Source of the DNA: Candidatus Roizmanbacteria bacterium GW2011_GWA2_35_19
GTDB taxonomy: Bacteria; Patescibacteriota; Microgenomatia; UBA1406; GWC2-37-13
Direction: 5' to 3'
Length of the DNA stretch: 42,340 nt
Assembly: GCA_000990565.1 (NCBI GenBank)
Contig: LBQC01000003.1
Coordinates: forward strand, 17,251 to 59,590
Within the stretch, counting starts at the first letter, position 1, and each line of letters starts with the position of its first letter. Under the pieces are notes generated by a model. The model saw only the letters and a list, made by a program, of their open reading frames with translations, searched no databases and was not told the origin of the DNA. Below are positions 31,290-41,667 of this stretch, piece by piece. A program made the translations under genes and the position numbers.

Positions 31290-32864
31290 TTACATTCGTT
31301 CAACCGTTTTAATTCCCAATAAATCCAACCCTTTCTTAATTATATTTGCGGTTGCGAGAGTAATTAACAATCGAATTTTTTTTATTTCTTCATCAGCTTT
31401 TAAAATGGGATTCTTTTGGTAAAACACATTATAAGATGAAGCCAGATCATAAATATAATTGGCAATATCATTAGGTGATAAATCTATGGCCGCCTTATTC
31501 ACAACCTCAGGAAATTTACTAAATTTCCTCATGAGATTTAATTCGTTTTCACCCATTCTGGCAAGTGACTGAGCGGAAAGCGAAGGAACGCGTCCAGAAT
31601 GACGGCGAAGAATACTTTGACAACGAACATATGTGTAGATTAAATATGGAGCTGAATTACCGTCAACGGCGATTGATTCTTCAAGATCGAAGGCGATTGC
31701 GTCGGTCACTGATTGTTTAAGGAATGAATATTTAACTGAAGCGACTGCAAGTACCTCAGCCGTTTCATCATCGCATTTAAATTTTTCTACAATCTTCTTC
31801 TTTGTTTCATCAATTAACCAAGGACCCTCAATAATATTACCAACCCGGGAAGACATCTTACCTTCCTTTAAATTAACCCAGTTATAGGCTAAATGGTATT
31901 GCTTATTTTTATATTTTTTTTCATTCAAGAGTTCCTCGACCTTGAAAGTTATCTTGAAGAAACTTGACTGCTCGGGGGTAACGCAATGGATATTTTTATC
32001 CAGTTCTCCAAAGTCAGAAAATTCTTTTTCAGCCAGGCCAAGTTCTTTTCCCTCATAAGTCGGAAACCCAAGCGAATTGATAAAAACCCGCGTATCGAGT
32101 CCATATTTTTTTCCATTAAAGACTATTGCCCCCTGGCTTTTTTCAAGAATCCCAGATTTTAAGGCCTGCATACATACTTCAGTTCCTCTTTCATAAAACT
32201 CGCTTTCAAAATACAATCGGTCAAAATGGCTATATACACGCTTATAAACTTCGTCAAAATAATCAAGACTCCATTTGCGAGTCTCTTCCCATAAAGGCAT
32301 TATTTCAAGGTCACGATCGTAAATCATTTTATTAATTTTTAAGATTTCTTCTTTAGCTTTTGGATCTACTTCGTAAGCGCGAGTTCCCTCGGTGTACATT
32401 TTTCCAATAAATTTTGTCTTATCTGATGTTGTTTTAAGTTTTTTCATTTCTAATTTTTTGTTTCTTACAGCGTATAAACATTTAGCTGTATGGAGGCCAA
32501 CATCGCCTTGATAATTGCTTCGAATGACTTTGTTACCTACTGCTTCAAGGATTCTGACAACTGTTTCACCGGTTGAAATATTACGAAGATGTCCGATATG
32601 AAATAGTTTTAGAGTATTAGGATGAGCAAATTCGACCATTACCTTTTTATTTGGCCCAAAATGATATTTGGAAAAATCAAATTTCTCTTTAGCGTATTCA
32701 TGTAGTTGACTAGTTAACTGCACTTTCGAAATCCAGAAGTTGATAAAGCCGGGCTTAACGATTTCAATTTTTTCGGCCGGTGGTTGAAGGTCGACTACAA
32801 TATTATCGACGGTAAGTTTTTTTAAAACTTCGTTCAAAGCCTTGAGTACTTGATCCTTTATCAT
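31290..32864 (-). CDS. argS: Arginine-tRNA ligase
   Basis: ArgRS is a class I synthetase that charges tRNA-Arg. The HIGH motif lies in LKLFHIGHLRN, and the KMSKS position reads KMSSR (EGKMSSRVG). A short N-terminal domain and the C-terminal anticodon-binding helical domain frame the core. The repeat at 31554-31604 adds about 17 residues (HSGRVPSLSAQSLARM) in the anticodon-binding domain. The frame also allows an upstream TTG at 32882; the ATG at 32864 (MIKDQVLKALNEV) fits the family better. It follows pfkB closely. Confidence 0.93.
   Translation of the reverse strand: MIKDQVLKALNEVLKKLTVDNIVVDLQPPAEKIEIVKPGFINFWISKVQLTSQLHEYAKEKFDFSKYHFGPNKKVMVEFAHPNTLKLFHIGHLRNISTGETVVRILEAVGNKVIRSNYQGDVGLHTAKCLYAVRNKKLEMKKLKTTSDKTKFIGKMYTEGTRAYEVDPKAKEEILKINKMIYDRDLEIMPLWEETRKWSLDYFDEVYKRVYSHFDRLYFESEFYERGTEVCMQALKSGILEKSQGAIVFNGKKYGLDTRVFINSLGFPTYEGKELGLAEKEFSDFGELDKNIHCVTPEQSSFFKITFKVEELLNEKKYKNKQYHLAYNWVNLKEGKMSSRVGNIIEGPWLIDETKKKIVEKFKCDDETAEVLAVASVKYSFLKQSVTDAIAFDLEESIAVDGNSAPYLIYTYVRCQSILRRHSGRVPSLSAQSLARMGENELNLMRKFSKFPEVVNKAAIDLSPNDIANYIYDLASSYNVFYQKNPILKADEEIKKIRLLITLATANIIKKGLDLLGIKTVERM
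31554..31604 (-). repeat. Dispersed repeat copy inside argS
   Basis: On the minus strand the segment starts GTCATTCTGGACGCGTTC and ends CTTGCCAGAATGGG. The 14-base TTCTGGACGCGTTC and the 12-base CTTGCCAGAATG ends match the intergenic repeat at 26649-26689, while the middle differs. Confidence 0.8.
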
Positions 32865-32885
32865 TGCTTTATATGATAGCAAAAC

Positions 32886-34534: not shown

Positions 34535-35748
34535 TTATTTTTGACTACTAGGTTTCCAGACATGGGAAACAACTGGTTTAATTTGTAACCAATCTTTTTG
34601 TTTTAAAACATGATTAAAAAGTGTCCGTCTTTTTGATAAAGATGGAGCAGCAGCATAAACCAACAGAGAAGGATTACCAACTTTGGCTTGAGCAAACTGC
34701 CCAAATAAAGATTGTAAATGTTCCTGCTGTAAAGACAAAAATGTTTGCCAGTCTCCTGCTTGAATTATAGGAAAGTAACTTTTTGCCATGGATTTTACAC
34801 CTTCTTCAGCCGCTATGGAGAATTTTTGAGCCAGTGGATCAATAAGGGTATTAATTACTGGTGTTCCATCTTTTTTAAATTGCTGTACCGAAACATGATT
34901 ACATACAGTTGCTTCCATAACATCAGCTAACGCTTCTAAATCAAATCTAACTGAATTATTCATTGTTAGTTTATTACTATTAGTTAATTCAGCCAAATAA
35001 TTTATATATGCTGGTACAGTATCTTCAAATTCTCCACCGCATAGATGACTGTAAAAAGCAACTGGAAGTAAAATGACGTTCGATGGAACAACTCCATCTA
35101 GAATAGGCGAAGGCATATGCCCATTTTGCCATAAAGCTCCAACATTACCAGCTTGGGCAATAAAAAAGATTTCTTACCCTGCTTTAAAGCATCAATCATA
35201 TAGGCATACTGAAGGGAATCGGCCACAACGATATGTTTTGAATTTCCTATCTGTTGTTGAATATAGGAAATTATTTGTTTGTAATGATTGGGAGTTTTTT
35301 CAACTAATGATCCAGTAGATGGGTCAATTTCATCTTTAATACCAAGGTTTAATCGGTTAATATGGACCGCTTTATTGACTTTAGGATCCAGGTCTAAGGC
35401 AGGAGATAAAACTTCAGCCGCCCACATTCCCGGGTATGAATCACGCGGTAACCACCATAATTGAGTTAAAGGATCAAATTGTTTTAGTGACTTGTAAGTT
35501 TGAAGAGCCATCACGCTCCATCCAACCACAAGGGGTCCAAGAATATTTTGATAAAATTCTTGGTAAACATCTAAATATGCTTGTTCACTAGTTATTGCTT
35601 TTCCCTCAAATAATTTAACTTGCGCTTGTGATTTAAATAAACTAGAGTATTTTAAAGAAGTTTCATCGCCAATAGAATAGGCGATAGCTTTTTGATACCA
35701 ATCTGCCATCTGATCTAAAGTAATTTTTGTTTCTATTTTTTCTTTCAT
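34535..35748 (-). pseudogene. Frameshifted gene of unknown function
   Basis: Two overlapping frames, 35098-35748 and 34535-35116, are parts of one gene. The first frame ends KKSFLLPKLVMLELYGK, which is not protein-like. In the second frame the sequence upstream of its Met reads FFIAQAGNVGALWQNGH and joins smoothly. One extra T in the run of six at 35162-35167 restores a protein of about 404 residues. The part IGPL-like ILGPLVVGW ... LWWLPRDSYPGMWAAE resembles a family I know only from glycan clusters; I give no function. A sequencing error or phase variation is as likely as true loss. Confidence 0.75.
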
Positions 35749-35825: not shown

Positions 35826-36866
35826 TCATCCCCATAGATTTTTCCTTAATAAATAAAAAATAACTTTTTGTAGATTCAAAAGATTATTAACAGCTATATA
35901 TTCTTTTACTGTATGCGCATTTTTTACACCATCGCCAAGATTGATTGTTTTTATTCCCTTTGAATTTAGAATATTTGCATCGCTTACAGCAGAATAAGTG
36001 AAGGGTGTTGGATTTAAATCTAAAGATTTATACATTTGAATTACCTGTTTCACTAAATCAGATGAGATTTTATGACTATATCCTGGAGCAAATCCAGAAA
36101 ATGTCAATAGGCCTTTCTTAAAAATAAACTTTATTTTTTCAATATGTTTTTCAAAAAGATTTTTTTGATAACTTCTGATTTCTCCTTTGAGTGTAAATTT
36201 ATCTGGAATAATGTTGATTCCAGTTCCTCCGTTAATCAAACCTACATTGATAGTAGTTTCACCATTATTAAGTTTTCCGATTTTAACTTCACTTAATGCA
36301 TTAATTGCTGGAATTAAAGCGTTAGTGCCTTTTTCAGGAGTCGAAGAGTGACTTGCTTTTCCGCTAAATTCTACCTCAAATAAACAGATATAAGGGGATC
36401 TCAATATTATTGATCCAATCGGTTTAATACTATCAAAAGTAAAACCAATTTTTGATTTTATCCAATCAAATGGGAATTTACTTAAACCGTTGCCGTTTTC
36501 TTCATCAACCGTAAAGAGGAGCTCGAAGGATTTTGAGTTAGGCGACTCTTCGACGGCGGCCATCAAAGCTGCGATGGCCGCTTTATTATCTGCCCCAAGA
36601 ATAGTTTTTCCTGAACTTTTAATTATGTCATTTTTAATAAATGGCTTTATATTTTTTCCTGGTTCGACCGTATCCATATGAGCGCAAAATAAAATCGGTG
36701 GGCTATTCTCTATTTTTTTTGCCAAAATGTTTCCAGCCGAGTCAACCTGGAAGCCTAAGCCCAGTTTATTCAGCCAATTTTTTACATATTCAATCATTCC
36801 CTGTTCGTGTCCAGAAGGGCTATCAATTTGTACCATTTCGATAAATTTGGATACAGCCTTATACAT
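35826..36866 (-). CDS. M20-family peptidase (PepT-like)
   Basis: This is a zinc peptidase of the M20 family, near tripeptidase T. The metal motifs are visible: CAHMDTVEPG (about residues 62-71), TILGADNKAAIAALM (about 92-106) and TVDEENGNG (about 125-133, with the catalytic Glu). The His of the last ligand site is in the C-terminal NAHTVKEYI. The lid domain includes ASHSSTPEKGTNAL. The ORF extends to an earlier Met at 36896, inside argH. The Met at 36866 starts one base after the argH stop and is preferred. A link to arginine-containing peptides is inference. Confidence 0.88.
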   Translation of the reverse strand: MYKAVSKFIEMVQIDSPSGHEQGMIEYVKNWLNKLGLGFQVDSAGNILAKKIENSPPILFCAHMDTVEPGKNIKPFIKNDIIKSSGKTILGADNKAAIAALMAAVEESPNSKSFELLFTVDEENGNGLSKFPFDWIKSKIGFTFDSIKPIGSIILRSPYICLFEVEFSGKASHSSTPEKGTNALIPAINALSEVKIGKLNNGETTINVGLINGGTGINIIPDKFTLKGEIRSYQKNLFEKHIEKIKFIFKKGLLTFSGFAPGYSHKISSDLVKQVIQMYKSLDLNPTPFTYSAVSDANILNSKGIKTINLGDGVKNAHTVKEYIAVNNLLNLQKVIFYLLRKNLWG

Positions 36867-36867
36867 A

Positions 36868-38868
36868 TTAACTTTTGATAAATTTATATACTTCATCTAG
36901 TAATTTTTCTTCTGATTCAACAAGCTTATTCTTTTGATCAGCTGTCCAATTATTTAGAATTATTAATTCTTTACTTAATTTGTTATTAATTTTTTGAACA
37001 TATTTTGGTCCAGCAGATCCTTCATGTTCATAGTGATCTAAAGCATTTTCTACATTAAAAACGTTATTAACAAGATCTGCGCTGAGAGGTAAATTTTTCC
37101 CAATTATTTCAATAATGGCCTTTTTTACTATATCGACTGTTATGGCCTGTACGTTTCCATTTACCAGACCGACTGTTTTGCCGACGATTTTGTGGGCAGT
37201 TCGGAAAGGTACCTGAAATTTTTTTACCAACTCATCAGCGAGCTTTGTTGGTAGACTAGAGATGACTCCTTTTTTCATCGCTTCAGGATTAGCAACGACT
37301 TTTGAAATCATCGCGTTGGTTATTGCGATCGTACTGAGAGCTTCATCAAGCGAAGCCATTATTGCAATTTTAGTTTCTGCTGAATCACGATTGTAACCCG
37401 ATGGGGTACCTTTCATAGCAACAATGTCGTGGACCAGATTAGCAATCAATTTTGAGCTTTTGCTTTTAATTTTTTCACAGATATCAGGATTCATTTTTTG
37501 TGGCATTATCGAAGAACCGGTTGTATATTCTTCGGAAATTGCCACATAATTTAATTCTGGCAAACTCCAAATGATGAGATCTTCCATCATTTTGGAAAGG
37601 ATTGTCATAATTATAGCCAACTGACTTATAATATTGGCGTCCTCTATACCACGGTTATTGATTGCGCTTAAACCATTATTAAGTGGCTTGGAAAATCCTA
37701 GAGCTTTAGCTGTGAGTTCCGGTTTGATTTTCCAGTTGACTCCGTAAGAGGCTCCGGCTCCAAGAGGGCAATAATCATATACCTCAAAAATAGTTTTCAA
37801 CACATCATTAATAAATAGAATTTGATCAAGATATGACTGCCACCAAAAGCCAAAACTTGATGGCATAGCGCTTCTCATGTGAGTAAATCCGGGCATGATG
37901 ATATCTTTATACATTTCTGCCTTTTTTAACAAGGTTTTCTCAAGCTTATTAAGCTCGTCAAAAATATCGACCAACGATTTTTTTGTAAAAAGCTTTTGAT
38001 CAACGATTGTTTGGTCATTTCGGCTTCTTGCTACATGAAACCAGCCCGCTTCGTCTCCAATCTTGTCAGTCAATTGTTTTTCCACGTTTTCATGGACGTC
38101 ACCAACTGAGGGATCGATAATATTTCCATAATGGGATTTTCCAAGTATTTCAAGTAACCCCTTTAAAATTTTTTTAGCAATTTGTTTTGGGACAATTCCA
38201 CATTTTGCCGTCATCAGATTATGAGCAATAGTTTCAATCACATAATACGGTGCCAATTTATTTTCAAGCACCGTCATCGTTGGGTCCATAATAAATTGAT
38301 CAGTGATTTTTGCCGGTCCTTTCGTATAGATCCCTTCATATATTTTTGTGTTTTTCATAATATTTTTATTTAAATTTTTAATAATTTTCAAATTCATACA
38401 TGTTTCAGGTTTTCCTTTAAGTAAATTCTTGACATAGTGTGGATATTTCATCTTAGTTGCTCCGAGTTTTTTTAAAGTTGAAATTGCTTTAATATTATCG
38501 CTTGAAATTATGGCAAATAAATCTGAGTCTGGATCGAGCGTATCGTGTAGGTTGCATACCAAATCAACCAGCTGCTTACCAATTCCATTATTTGGATATT
38601 TTGATATCCAGGATGAAAATTCATAACCTTTGATTGTATTTTTTACCATCCATGGATATAGTTTGGCAAAGCCTAGCAGTTGGTGTTGGTCATCCGTTAT
38701 AAGTACCGTCAGACCCTTGTCCATATAATCCACTAATTCTTTTTCAGAAAATTGCACCATATGCTCCTTATGACCATTTATAAACATTAAAATATCTTTT
38801 ATAATATTTTTCTTTTTTGACAACGAAATTATTTTTAATTGTTTTCCAGAAAATTCTAGTTTATTCAC
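36868..38868 (-). CDS. argH: Acetyltransferase-argininosuccinate lyase fusion
   Basis: The C-terminal ~495 residues are argininosuccinate lyase: the start TKIYEGIYTKGPAKI, then GDVHENVEKQL, HVARSRNDQ and the catalytic-loop signature GSSIMPQKMNPD. It splits argininosuccinate into arginine and fumarate. Residues 1-165 form a GNAT acetyltransferase with the acyl-CoA loop PNNGIGKQL (about 92-100), resembling the acetylglutamate synthase domain. A GNAT-lyase fusion is known as argH(A) in some marine gammaproteobacteria, but there the GNAT part is C-terminal. The gene overlaps argG by 4 bases. Length 666, frame unbroken. Confidence 0.93.
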   Translation of the reverse strand: MNKLEFSGKQLKIISLSKKKNIIKDILMFINGHKEHMVQFSEKELVDYMDKGLTVLITDDQHQLLGFAKLYPWMVKNTIKGYEFSSWISKYPNNGIGKQLVDLVCNLHDTLDPDSDLFAIISSDNIKAISTLKKLGATKMKYPHYVKNLLKGKPETCMNLKIIKNLNKNIMKNTKIYEGIYTKGPAKITDQFIMDPTMTVLENKLAPYYVIETIAHNLMTAKCGIVPKQIAKKILKGLLEILGKSHYGNIIDPSVGDVHENVEKQLTDKIGDEAGWFHVARSRNDQTIVDQKLFTKKSLVDIFDELNKLEKTLLKKAEMYKDIIMPGFTHMRSAMPSSFGFWWQSYLDQILFINDVLKTIFEVYDYCPLGAGASYGVNWKIKPELTAKALGFSKPLNNGLSAINNRGIEDANIISQLAIIMTILSKMMEDLIIWSLPELNYVAISEEYTTGSSIMPQKMNPDICEKIKSKSSKLIANLVHDIVAMKGTPSGYNRDSAETKIAIMASLDEALSTIAITNAMISKVVANPEAMKKGVISSLPTKLADELVKKFQVPFRTAHKIVGKTVGLVNGNVQAITVDIVKKAIIEIIGKNLPLSADLVNNVFNVENALDHYEHEGSAGPKYVQKINNKLSKELIILNNWTADQKNKLVESEEKLLDEVYKFIKS

Positions 38869-40079
38869 AACATTTCACCCCCTTTCTTATTTATTTTTGA
38901 GGCAATAATAGATTGGAGTCCGTAGAGCTTTATAAATCCATCAACTTCTTGTTTTGTCCAAGTTTTACTTTGGGCGTACATGGCAATTTTCGGATCGATT
39001 AGCGAATATTTTGATTTCACGGATACTGGTAAGGCATTACCATGTTCAATCTTCATCACGACTTTGCCACTAACATTTTTTTGATTTTTTTTAATAAAAG
39101 CTTTTAGAGAATCAATATATGGATCATAAAATTTTCCGTTAAAAATATTTTCTGTCATCTCTTTTGAAACCAGTTCGCCAAAATATATTTGTTGTTTTGA
39201 AAGGACATATTGTTCAAGAGCGAGGTGTGCTTTTATCAAAAATAAAATTCCCGGTGCTTCAAAAACTAGGTGTCCCTTGATACCGATCATGCAATCGCCG
39301 GTATAATATCCTTTACCAAACCCATATTTTCCGACTTCATGATTTAATATTTGAAGTATTTTAAAACCTTCAAGTTTTTTCCCATTAAGTTTTATAGGAG
39401 TTCCTTTATCGAAAACAATTTCAAAATAGGTTTTTTTATTTACATATTTTCCGGTTACCCATTGGAATATATTTTGATCGAGTTCAAGATTTTGGTCAAT
39501 TTCACTACCCGAATAGGTAATGCCTAGTAAATTAACATTAATAGAATATTTTTTATTGGAATCACCAATTACGAAACCATTTTTTTTAAGATATTTTTTC
39601 TCCTCTTCTCGATTGCCACCCATATCCTTGATTGGTTCAATCAAGGTAATATCTGGCGCAAGTATTTTTAAGGGAATATTGAATCTCACTTGATCGTTTC
39701 CCATGCCACTATTACCATTGGCAACATATTGAGCTTTTTCAAGGTTGGCAATTTCAATACATTTTTCAACAATCCCATATCTTTGAGAAGAGACGATATT
39801 AGGGTAAGATCCTTCATACAATCCATTTGTCATAATAATCCATTTAATAACCGAGTTAAAATATTGTTTTTTGTAATCAATTTGGTAATGTTTTTTTGCG
39901 CCCAGTGCTTTTGATTTTTCTTCAATACTTTTTAATTCATCGCTGGAGAATCCTCCTGAGTCAACGGTCGCAGTAATGACGTCAAATCCTTTTTCAATTA
40001 AATAAAGGACACAAAAAGAAGTGTCCAGACCTCCGGAAAAAGCAAGAATGACTTTTTTACTTATATTTTGATTTTTCAT
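38865..40079 (-). CDS. argG: Argininosuccinate synthase
   Basis: ArgG joins citrulline and aspartate with ATP to argininosuccinate. The ATP pyrophosphatase P-loop is SGGLDTS (about residues 15-21), followed by FDVITATVDSGG. Other family features are YVANGNSGMGNDQVRFN, IEPIKDMGGNREEEKKYL and the YSINVNLLGITYSGSEID region. The length of 404 is normal. It is coupled to argH. No argininosuccinate precursor genes (argF, carAB) are in the window, so citrulline may be imported or made elsewhere. Confidence 0.96.
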   Translation of the reverse strand: MKNQNISKKVILAFSGGLDTSFCVLYLIEKGFDVITATVDSGGFSSDELKSIEEKSKALGAKKHYQIDYKKQYFNSVIKWIIMTNGLYEGSYPNIVSSQRYGIVEKCIEIANLEKAQYVANGNSGMGNDQVRFNIPLKILAPDITLIEPIKDMGGNREEEKKYLKKNGFVIGDSNKKYSINVNLLGITYSGSEIDQNLELDQNIFQWVTGKYVNKKTYFEIVFDKGTPIKLNGKKLEGFKILQILNHEVGKYGFGKGYYTGDCMIGIKGHLVFEAPGILFLIKAHLALEQYVLSKQQIYFGELVSKEMTENIFNGKFYDPYIDSLKAFIKKNQKNVSGKVVMKIEHGNALPVSVKSKYSLIDPKIAMYAQSKTWTKQEVDGFIKLYGLQSIIASKINKKGGEML

Positions 40080-40104: not shown

Positions 40105-40530
40105 TTACTTGCTAAAAAGACAAATATTGTGATCAGCCTTAACTTTTTTCATGAATTTATCAAGGTGGTTAAAATATTTTGAATCAACATACATTTCAAT
40201 AGCTGTTAATCCAGCTAACTCTTCAGCTTGAAAATGATGATTTCCATATGTTGTCTTTGTTTTTTCGTGACCTTCTTGCCAACTTGTGGTTAGGTCTTTT
40301 ACAACAAACAAAATCGATAATGATTCTTTAACCGCGTCAATTCCTCCATCTGCTAGTTCCATATACATACCAACATTACTCGGGCTAGCCTTGTGTTTTT
40401 CAATATATGCTTGAAAAGCTGGTGATTTTAATATTTCAACTGGTAATAAAGCCCATTTTTTGCGACCATGTTCAACCGCAATTTGATTTCTATGATGTTG
40501 AAATTGTTTTAATTGTTTAAATGCTTTCAT
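40105..40530 (-). CDS. Unknown protein heading the arginine operon
   Basis: I do not recognise this 141-residue soluble protein. It has no signal peptide or membrane helix and is rich in His, Lys and aromatic residues (HHRNQIAVEHGRKKWALLP near the start, then TTYGNHHFQAEELAGLTAIEM). It lies directly before argG with a 25-base gap and behind a leader with two terminators, so its expression is tied to arginine genes. A regulatory or enzymatic role in this pathway is possible by position only. Confidence 0.7.
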   Translation of the reverse strand: MKAFKQLKQFQHHRNQIAVEHGRKKWALLPVEILKSPAFQAYIEKHKASPSNVGMYMELADGGIDAVKESLSILFVVKDLTTSWQEGHEKTKTTYGNHHFQAEELAGLTAIEMYVDSKYFNHLDKFMKKVKADHNICLFSK

Positions 40531-40554: not shown

Positions 40555-40583
40555 AAAAAAATCCCCCGGTTTCAATCGGGGGA
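40555..40583 (-). terminator. Second leader terminator (arginine operon)
   Basis: On the minus strand TCCCCCG / CGGGGGA (arms 40577-40583 and 40562-40568) is followed by seven T. It lies 24 bases before the ATG at 40530, after another terminator and the leader ORF. Confidence 0.85.
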
Positions 40584-40602
40584 GTTATGTGTATTTTCAG
40601 CC

Positions 40603-40637
40603 AAAAAAAATCCCCGGAGTTCTTTAGTCCGGGGGAT
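40603..40637 (-). terminator. First leader terminator (arginine operon)
   Basis: On the minus strand, a CCCCCGGA / TCCGGGG stem with an AGAACT-type loop is followed by eight T. It begins only about 20 bases after the leader ORF stop at 40655, the spacing expected for an attenuator. Confidence 0.85.
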
Positions 40638-40654
40638 TAATAATATTTTTTCTT

Positions 40655-40729
40655 TTAGGCCATGAAAATACTATCACTCCCAAAGAGTCGCCTTAAAGAC
40701 AACTTTGAAATAGATAGTAAGTTCTTCAT
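40655..40729 (-). CDS. 24-residue leader peptide with two arginine codons
   Basis: The ORF starts MKNLLSISKLSLRRLFGS and ends IFMA, with ATG at 40729 and TAA at 40655. Codons 13-14 are AGG CGA, a pair of arginines. A good promoter ends 8 bases before the ATG, so the message begins at the ORF. The ORF also contains complementary segments (TACTATC near its start and GATAGTA near its end; ACTC and GAGT between). Two terminators follow before the arginine genes. By analogy with other amino-acid leaders, arginine shortage would stall ribosomes on AGG CGA and favour read-through. Confidence 0.55.
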   Translation of the reverse strand: MKNLLSISKLSLRRLFGSDSIFMA

Positions 40730-40737
40730 ATTTATCG

Positions 40738-40766
40738 ATTTTATACTATGAGATATTCATTGTCAA
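40738..40766 (-). promoter_or_regulatory. Promoter of the arginine operon
   Basis: On the minus strand TTGACA (40761-40766), 17 bases, TAAAAT (40738-40743), then 8 bases to the leader ATG. The -35 overlaps the divergent -35 (40760-40765) of the transporter promoter, so the two promoters compete or are co-regulated. Confidence 0.75.
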
Positions 40767-40787
40767 TGGGCATTTTTCTGCTAAAAT
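40760..40787 (+). promoter_or_regulatory. Divergent promoter for the DMT transporter
   Basis: TTGTCA (40760-40765), 16 bases, TAAAAT (40782-40787) with TG one base upstream (extended -10). The first ATG of the transporter frame at 40786 would lie inside this box. If the promoter is right, the start is the ATG at 40798, 10 bases downstream. Confidence 0.55.
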
Positions 40788-40797
40788 GATAAGTTAT

Positions 40798-41667
40798 ATG
40801 TGGTTTTGGTTTGCAATCGGATCAGCGCTAACTTCGGCAATATCGGTAATTCTCAATAAAAAGGCATTAAAAAATATTGATACATCTCTCGTATCATGGT
40901 CGCTTTTTGCATTTTCTATACCCTTTTTAATCTACCCTGCCTTTAAAGATGGTTGGCCACAGGTAAATAATATGTTTTGGGTGGCAACTATTGCATCGAT
41001 AATTTCATTTGCATATGCAAAAACATTAGCACTAAAATCACTTAAAGGTAACTTAATGTCTGAGGTAGTCCCGCTAGCTTTTTTTGCTGTACTTTTTCAA
41101 TACGTTTTAGGTTTAATATTTTTTTCGGAAGTTCTAAAATTAACGTCCATTTTTGGTTTGGTGCTAATAATATTAGGAGGGTATCTACTTAAAGTTGAGG
41201 AAGCCAAAGAAGGGATATTTAAACCTTTTAAATTATTATTTACAAACAAAGGGGCGGTAATGTATCTGACTGCGATGGCAATCATGCCATTCACTTCTGT
41301 ATTTGATAAGACGGGTTTAATGAATATGAAAAATGTTAACCAATCTTTTTTGTTGTTATGGGAAAATGTTGCAACAACATTATTGATTGGATTTTACATT
41401 ACAAGGAAAAACCGCAATTGGATAAAAGAGGTTAAGAATAATTTTTTTACACTTTTTTTGAGCGGGGTGGTCTATGCCACTTTATCGTTATTTTACCTTT
41501 ACGGTATTACCGGGGGATCTTTAGCTCTTGTTTCAGGGGTGAAAAAACTAGAAGTTTTTTTTATTTTAGTTATCGGTTGGTTTTTATTTAAAGATAGGCC
41601 AAAAAGGGGAGTTTGGATAGGGAGTTTTATTATGTTGTTAGGTGTGATATTAATAAAAGTCGGCTAA
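40798..41667 (+). CDS. DMT/EamA-family transporter
   Basis: This is a drug/metabolite-superfamily permease with about ten membrane helices in two EamA halves. The first helix is FAIGSALTSAISVIL, and the second half starts near residue 155. A conserved-type end, WIGSFIMLLGVILIKVG, completes the protein. Small metabolites or amino acids are typical cargo; the substrate is not known. The frame is open from ATG 40786 (five residues longer), but that codon overlaps the -10 box. It is divergent from the arginine operon, so an amino acid is a reasonable guess. Confidence 0.85.
   Translation: MWFWFAIGSALTSAISVILNKKALKNIDTSLVSWSLFAFSIPFLIYPAFKDGWPQVNNMFWVATIASIISFAYAKTLALKSLKGNLMSEVVPLAFFAVLFQYVLGLIFFSEVLKLTSIFGLVLIILGGYLLKVEEAKEGIFKPFKLLFTNKGAVMYLTAMAIMPFTSVFDKTGLMNMKNVNQSFLLLWENVATTLLIGFYITRKNRNWIKEVKNNFFTLFLSGVVYATLSLFYLYGITGGSLALVSGVKKLEVFFILVIGWFLFKDRPKRGVWIGSFIMLLGVILIKVG

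Follow-up and report, generated by a model that had tools for sequence, protein, structure and literature searches.

Transcription attenuators of the trp, his, leu and phe type are described from proteobacteria, and the trp type also from Actinobacteria (PMC1262725). The leader studied here has in common with them a leader peptide with adjacent cognate codons, alternative 1:2, 2:3 and 3:4 pairings, an intrinsic terminator, and biosynthetic or aminoacyl-tRNA synthetase genes as targets. It differs from them in its presumed arginine signal, in its host, which belongs to the CPR bacteria, and in what is probably an almost absent 5′ UTR before the AUG. Moreover, its 2:3 pairing overlaps the base of the terminator only, and its region 2 also complements a second terminator in eight leaders.

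Two consecutive Arg codons in a short ORF are shared with orf34/SpeFL, located upstream of Salmonella speF, where AGG CGG occupies codons 12-13, pausing at low arginine alters mRNA folding and replacement by Lys abolishes the arginine effect (PMC6386406). However, orf34/SpeFL controls ornithine decarboxylase via Rho, RBS sequestration and RNase G, using a 516-nt leader with a Shine-Dalgarno site and no intrinsic-terminator switch (PMC6386406). Its peptide is also unrelated; the HIRRTxHIMM core (PMC6386406) is absent from the CPR leader peptides. The mycobacterial poly-cysteine ORFs (Canestrari et al. 2020, via PMC9031893) are leaderless small ORFs with adjacent regulatory codons, in which the amino acid is sensed by ribosome speed, and in this the probably leaderless CPR leader resembles them. 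They differ from the CPR leader in responding to cysteine, in belonging to another phylum and in being described as acting on downstream translation. Of these two, orf34-speF is the nearest precedent for the Arg codons and the mycobacterial poly-cysteine ORFs for leaderless attenuating ORFs.

Members of the T-box family sense uncharged tRNA and control transcription or translation accordingly. T-boxes (RF00230) bind the tRNA directly, contain no leader peptide and are unrelated in sequence to the CPR leader, with which those of two related genomes (G051, G057) have the position before argH in common. A 2005 survey of Actinobacteria reports no RNA element linked to arginine operons in that group; for arginine outside it, T-boxes are cited. 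No arginine attenuator in CPR bacteria, or on argG or argS, turned up in our search of the open-licence literature, in line with an initial sequence-only reading of the locus, which knew of none described in the CPR.

Results

An arginine operon lies behind a leader ORF and two terminators

The window, i.e., the whole stretch of DNA analyzed, comprises 42,340 nucleotides. On its minus strand, between 40766 and 40555, the promoter, the 24-codon leader ORF, the AGG CGA codons and the two terminators were all found where the sequence-only reading had placed them, including its T-runs of seven to eight residues. The unknown gene, argG and argH that it had named downstream were identified as a 141-aa ORF without family match and, by Pfam and NCBIfam, as argG and argH. 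The features are as follows.

40738..40766, minus strand: sigma-70-like promoter, TTGACA at 40766-40761, 17-nt spacer, TAAAAT at 40743-40738
40655..40729, minus strand: leader ORF of 24 codons, MKNLLSISKLSLRRLFGSDSIFMA followed by the stop codon; homologous ORFs in 30 genomes
40713..40720, minus strand: region 1 (TTACTATC), predicted partner of region 2 when no ribosome is on region 1 (folding and cognate test)
40688..40693, minus strand: putative regulatory codons AGG CGA (Arg-Arg), with Arg-Arg in 33/33 leaders
40665..40681, minus strand: region 2 (GGGAGTGATAGTATTTT), putative antiterminator strand, beginning 6 nt past the Arg pair
40632..40646, minus strand: region 3 (ATATTATTAATCCCC), partner of region 2 by 2:3 covariation, overlapping the 5′ arm of terminator 1
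40602..40634, minus strand: terminator 1, hairpin 40634-40612 followed by T8
40579..40602, minus strand: region 5 (GGCTGAAAATACACATAACTCCCC), also complementary to region 2, together with the leader GGCC end, overlapping the 5′ arm of terminator 2
40555..40583, minus strand: terminator 2, hairpin 40583-40562 followed by T7
40105..40530, minus strand: 141-aa ORF, first gene past the terminators, no Pfam or NCBIfam match
38865..40079, minus strand: argG, argininosuccinate synthase (PF00764, PF20979)
36868..38868, minus strand: argH, argininosuccinate lyase (TIGR00838 above cut-off)
35826..36896, minus strand: M20 peptidase / ArgE-DapE-like deacylase, overlapping argH (TIGR01883 and TIGR01910, both below cut-off)
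40786-41667, plus strand: EamA transporter gene, divergent upstream neighbour

The window ArgH is 666 aa long and carries an N-terminal extension weakly resembling GNAT acetyltransferases; in relatives, a separate GNAT gene adjoins argH or the M20 gene. Downstream of the arg genes, also on the minus strand, is argS (31290-32882), encoding arginyl-tRNA synthetase; another terminator (35800-35778) precedes it. Two overlapping ORFs in different frames (35098-35748 and 34535-35116, minus), without Pfam match, resemble a single gene interrupted by a frameshift, either real or a sequencing error. For the divergent EamA gene, whose promoter (40760-40787) has a -10 box overlapping the annotated ATG, an almost leaderless start at ATG 40798 is more likely than the annotated one.

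In 19 kb, only four sites reach an 11/12 promoter match; the leader promoter is among them, and its -10 box ends 8 nt from the leader ATG. The leader RNA is predicted to fold much more stably than shuffled controls (z -5.2 for the whole RNA, about -4 for the leader hairpin alone), and the TACTATC with GATAGTA pairing proposed earlier is present as part of a longer hairpin. Both hairpins are strong intrinsic terminators, and the sequence-only reading had offered as its alternative that they simply insulate the operon. A purely insulating function, or the termination of an sRNA, without any regulation, would have little to act on here: the upstream gene is divergent, so that no transcription enters on the arg strand, and the promoter lies upstream of both hairpins. 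Given the -10 boxes upstream of the leader, transcription should start before the terminators. As region 2 in addition co-varies with the terminator arm (see below), we regard this as the least likely explanation of all.

The leader is conserved in Roizmanbacteria

Covariance models (R1, R2) were built from leaders found upstream of argG in genomes of the same group, and 33 homologous leaders from 30 genomes, nearly all Ca. Roizmanbacteria (CPR), were tabulated. The models matched in 29/72 genomes of the family and in 32/83 of the order, family included. Outside the order, a single match (G406) was obtained in a sample of 374 genomes of the class; named records with the leader core are nearly all Candidatus Roizmanbacteria. 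Further copies beyond the table occur in G038 and G020, with long insertions, and in G072, a near-copy of G021, while the leaders before argH in G077 and G078 had been overlooked by the covariance model. Two weak R2 matches (L080 and L081, G040) without an Arg-Arg ORF were taken as false. A core pattern that contains no Arg codon, GGGGARGGTARTRTT, has 22 sites in the 72 genomes, all within leaders, compared to one for the reversed-pattern control. Before argG and argH in relatives, the comparison in which the sequence-only reading could have failed, the ORF, an invariant Arg-Arg and the terminators are all conserved. Conservation in 33 leaders rules out chance.

The leader ORF and its Arg pair are conserved

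Arg-Arg is present at codons 10-14 in 33/33 tabulated leaders, while the adjacent residues vary. Eight codon pairs are used for it (AGG-CGA, AGG-AGA, AGG-AGG, AGG-CGT, CGA-CGA, AGA-AGA, CGT-AGG and CGT-CGT), so it is the amino acid that is kept and not the base string. In the window genes, AGG (3.9 per thousand codons) and CGA (4.4) are minor Arg codons compared to AGA (12.4), and RR occurs at 1.4 per thousand residues. Insertions and deletions in the leader ORF are multiples of three (3, 6, 18 nt and longer) and the stop codon is kept. In G038 (L039) and G020 (L047), a repeat-like insertion (ATCCTCCTTCG...) of about 18 codons is placed directly upstream of the Arg pair, in frame both times, and the resulting frames are open, reading MSKLLSITNSSN-ILLRSNELRMDSSFNKAS-RRLFGEGSIFMS and a similar ORF of 44 codons.

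These observations bear on two other explanations. The leader could be a structured RNA regulator, either a riboswitch or a leader that binds a protein, and the ORF incidental to it; the strong leader hairpin (z -4) and the conserved alternative structures would fit this idea. It leaves unexplained, however, why the frame is kept through insertions, why the Arg pair undergoes synonymous changes and why the stop codon is retained. The leader also lacks a conserved unpaired ligand-like core, and the Rfam search of the window returned no family at gathering score, the best sub-threshold match of leader type being His_leader with 25 bits versus a gathering score of 49. The CPR leader thus falls below the gathering threshold of the described Rfam leader families (His_leader, Phe_leader and others). 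T-box features, namely the GGUGGNACCGCG antiterminator bulge and stem I, were looked for in the window and are absent. An RNA regulator with an incidental ORF is therefore extremely unlikely.

Alternatively, the nascent chain could act as an arrest peptide that stalls the ribosome on free arginine or a related metabolite rather than upon codon starvation, as in TnaC or, for ornithine, SpeFL. Near relatives indeed have much peptide sequence in common (NSxSRRLFGEGSI). Diverged leaders, however, retain RR and the pairings with almost no other common peptide residue (MFYHTSAIVLRRPSLGGWNCMR, MEKILSQTLQSVRRSNRDSMFCG, MIILLSPLGFSIRRREKRESNMAKI), and the common GEGSI and MKILLS residues are encoded by the RNA-paired regions 2 and 1. 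The insertions of about 18 codons directly upstream of RR would moreover disrupt an arrest sequence. We consider an arrest peptide very unlikely.

The leader ORF is probably leaderless

The distance from the end of the -10 box to the leader ATG is 6-12 nt in 29/33 leaders, mostly 6-8 nt, with exceptions of 14, 23, 23 and 26 nt. Transcription usually starts about 7 nt past the -10 box. Taken together, this would leave a 5′ UTR of roughly 0-4 nt and no room for a Shine-Dalgarno site, suggesting that the leader ORF is probably leaderless.

Alternative pairings are conserved in the leader

To compare the leaders, four segments were defined in each: segment 1 before RR, segment 2 at ~6 nt past RR, segment 3 before and into the 5′ arm of the terminator and segment 4 as its 3′ arm. 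Duplex energies of matched (cognate) segments were then compared with those of swapped segments, which requires no alignment. Over the 33 leaders, cognate duplexes were stronger for 1:2 (z -7.9), 2:3 (z -3.6) and 3:4 (z -9.9), although shared ancestry is still contained in these z values. In the control pairings 1:3 (+0.5) and 2:4 (+0.8), cognate segments of the same leaders paired no more strongly than swapped ones.

On alignment A3, six 2:3 pairs were changed on both sides, compared to 0/500 shuffles, with A3 leaning towards the structure used to build it. Compensated 2:3 changes include GGGAGAGATAGT with ACTATCTTTCCC (G003), GGGATAGTAT with ATATTATCCC (G049) and GTGGAA with TTCTAC (G064). 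No covariation was seen in the MAFFT alignment A2, because region 3 is misaligned there; it was replaced by a model-based alignment and the alignment-free duplex test.

A terminator with at least T6 is located between the leader ORF and the first gene in 33/33 leaders. In folding predictions that place a ribosome at the stop codon, the terminator forms alone and 2:3 is lost. When the A site of a stalled ribosome is instead occupied by the first Arg codon, 2:3 is predicted to form; at a stage when region 4 has yet to be transcribed, its median energy is -18.3 kcal/mol versus -12.6 kcal/mol for the terminator. At equilibrium, folding of the stalled state leaves a shortened terminator next to 2:3 in many leaders (0.87 for the window terminator). 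Formation of 2:3 would remove a median of about 4/7 terminator pairs, two in the window and, judged by the best duplex, none in G003 and G005b. As the terminator is mostly kept at equilibrium, read-through must rest on kinetics and on the loss of pairs next to the U-tract. We infer that it proceeds in this way; equilibrium folding alone does not predict full antitermination.

In eight leaders, region 2 also matches a second terminator

Eight leaders including the window possess a second terminator, which is weaker in G039 and G037. Between the two terminators runs the sequence GGCC-AAAATAC-(N)-TCCCC, complementary to region 2 and the leader GGCC end. The resulting 2:5 duplex has an energy of -22.5 kcal/mol in the window and of -22.2 kcal/mol on average in the eight leaders, compared to -10.3 kcal/mol for shuffled sequence, while the evidence that cognate 2:5 duplexes exceed swapped ones is statistically weak (p 0.046, N 8). 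A GGCC also follows terminator 1 in many one-terminator leaders; pairing of this GGCC with the end of the leader is stronger for cognate than for swapped sets (p 0.005). A handover by 4:5 pairing, between the 3′ arm of terminator 1 and the 5′ arm of terminator 2, was dropped in favour of 2:5, as its cognate duplexes were no better than swapped ones. We suggest that region 2 may pass from the first terminator on to the second.

Target genes, ArgR and T-boxes

The genes behind the leaders comprise argG, argH, argS, GNAT+M20 pairs, an ATP-grasp protein (G047, G064) and several unknowns; argS follows the leader in G039, and in G077 with an ORF in between. Genes without a known arginine role stand behind L025, L046, L030, L050 and L075. 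The ATP-grasp protein (L030 and L050, from two genera) is about 450-460 aa long with only distant biotin-carboxylase-like matches, and is a candidate arginine-related ligase.

Among the short argG genes of the family, 20/23 belong to clusters with a leader before argG or argH, counting G019, in which both genes are on separate contigs. The remaining three loci have no intact leader. G051 and G057 contain T-box-like leaders upstream of argH instead (L106:204-404 in G051; L109:254-461 and L108:164-346 in G057), with E values of 1.5e-13, 1.9e-6 and 5.5e-6 and bit scores under the Rfam gathering score. In G056 (L107), a decayed leader upstream of argH, MFILSATTNLRKIAW followed by the stop codon, is devoid of Arg-Arg, argG is truncated and an internal stop interrupts the argH frame, suggesting joint decay of leader and operon, with an assembly error being possible. 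A search for the ArgR C-domain found none in the 72 family genomes and recovered 8/14 controls.

The family also contains a second argG type (e.g., L007-L010), whose open frame spans about 540-577 aa and whose identity to the window argG is 31-35%. No leader-model match was obtained for these 17 long argG genes, and no leader was seen in the four upstream regions inspected.

Discussion

The ORF, its Arg codons, the pairings, the terminators and the target genes, all read from sequence, argue with high confidence for a trp/his-type ribosome-mediated transcription attenuator sensing charged arginyl-tRNA. The amino-acid attenuation suggested by the sequence-only reading is thereby supported by a conserved ORF, by Arg-Arg with synonymous changes and by terminators in relatives. 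The analysis adds the proposed 1:2/2:3/3:4 switch, the probable leaderless start, the complementarity of region 2 to the second terminator, and argH, argS and GNAT+M20 targets.

The mode of action is inferred, from the physiological signal and ribosome stalling to read-through and the second handover. RNA polymerase would start at the leader AUG or a few nucleotides before it, and the leader ORF would be translated without a Shine-Dalgarno site. With ample Arg-tRNA, the ribosome would reach the stop codon and cover region 2, so that region 3 joins region 4, terminator 1 forms and transcription stops, with terminator 2 serving as a backstop. With scarce Arg-tRNA, the ribosome would stall at AGG CGA and mask region 1, leaving region 2 free, which begins 12 nt past the first Arg base, about the edge of a stalled ribosome. 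Before region 4 has been transcribed, region 2 would then pair with region 3 and take the basal terminator pairs by the U-tract, resulting in read-through. In two-terminator leaders, it may subsequently move to region 5 and disarm terminator 2.

Three aspects were not found reported in the open-licence literature searched and may be new: the CPR host, the probably leaderless ORF (ATG 6-9 nt past the -10 box in most copies) and the match of region 2 to the second terminator in eight leaders. A more far-reaching view, which we advance tentatively and hold to be somewhat short of an even chance, is that of a leaderless CPR arginine attenuator whose single mobile antiterminator strand acts on two terminators one after the other. 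Having opened terminator 1, this strand, joined by the leader GGCC end, would pair anew with a complementary copy ahead of terminator 2. The result would be a two-step low-leak arginine switch standing in for ArgR and exchangeable for the T-box of sister lineages.

CPR bacteria are largely uncultured and their gene regulation is very little known. A lineage-wide codon-level attenuator would imply that in these reduced cells ribosome and polymerase work in close enough coupling for the former to control the latter, and that leader ORFs are translated despite a nearly absent 5′ UTR. It would further imply arginine limitation as a selected signal in bacteria often taken as host-dependent. As a regulon marker, the leader turns the ATP-grasp protein of L030/L050, the GNAT+M20 pairs and several unknowns into candidates for arginine supply. 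Before one gene, argH, two different sensors of uncharged tRNA appear to have been exchanged, and Roizmanbacteria seem to measure arginine by the ribosome rather than by a repressor protein.
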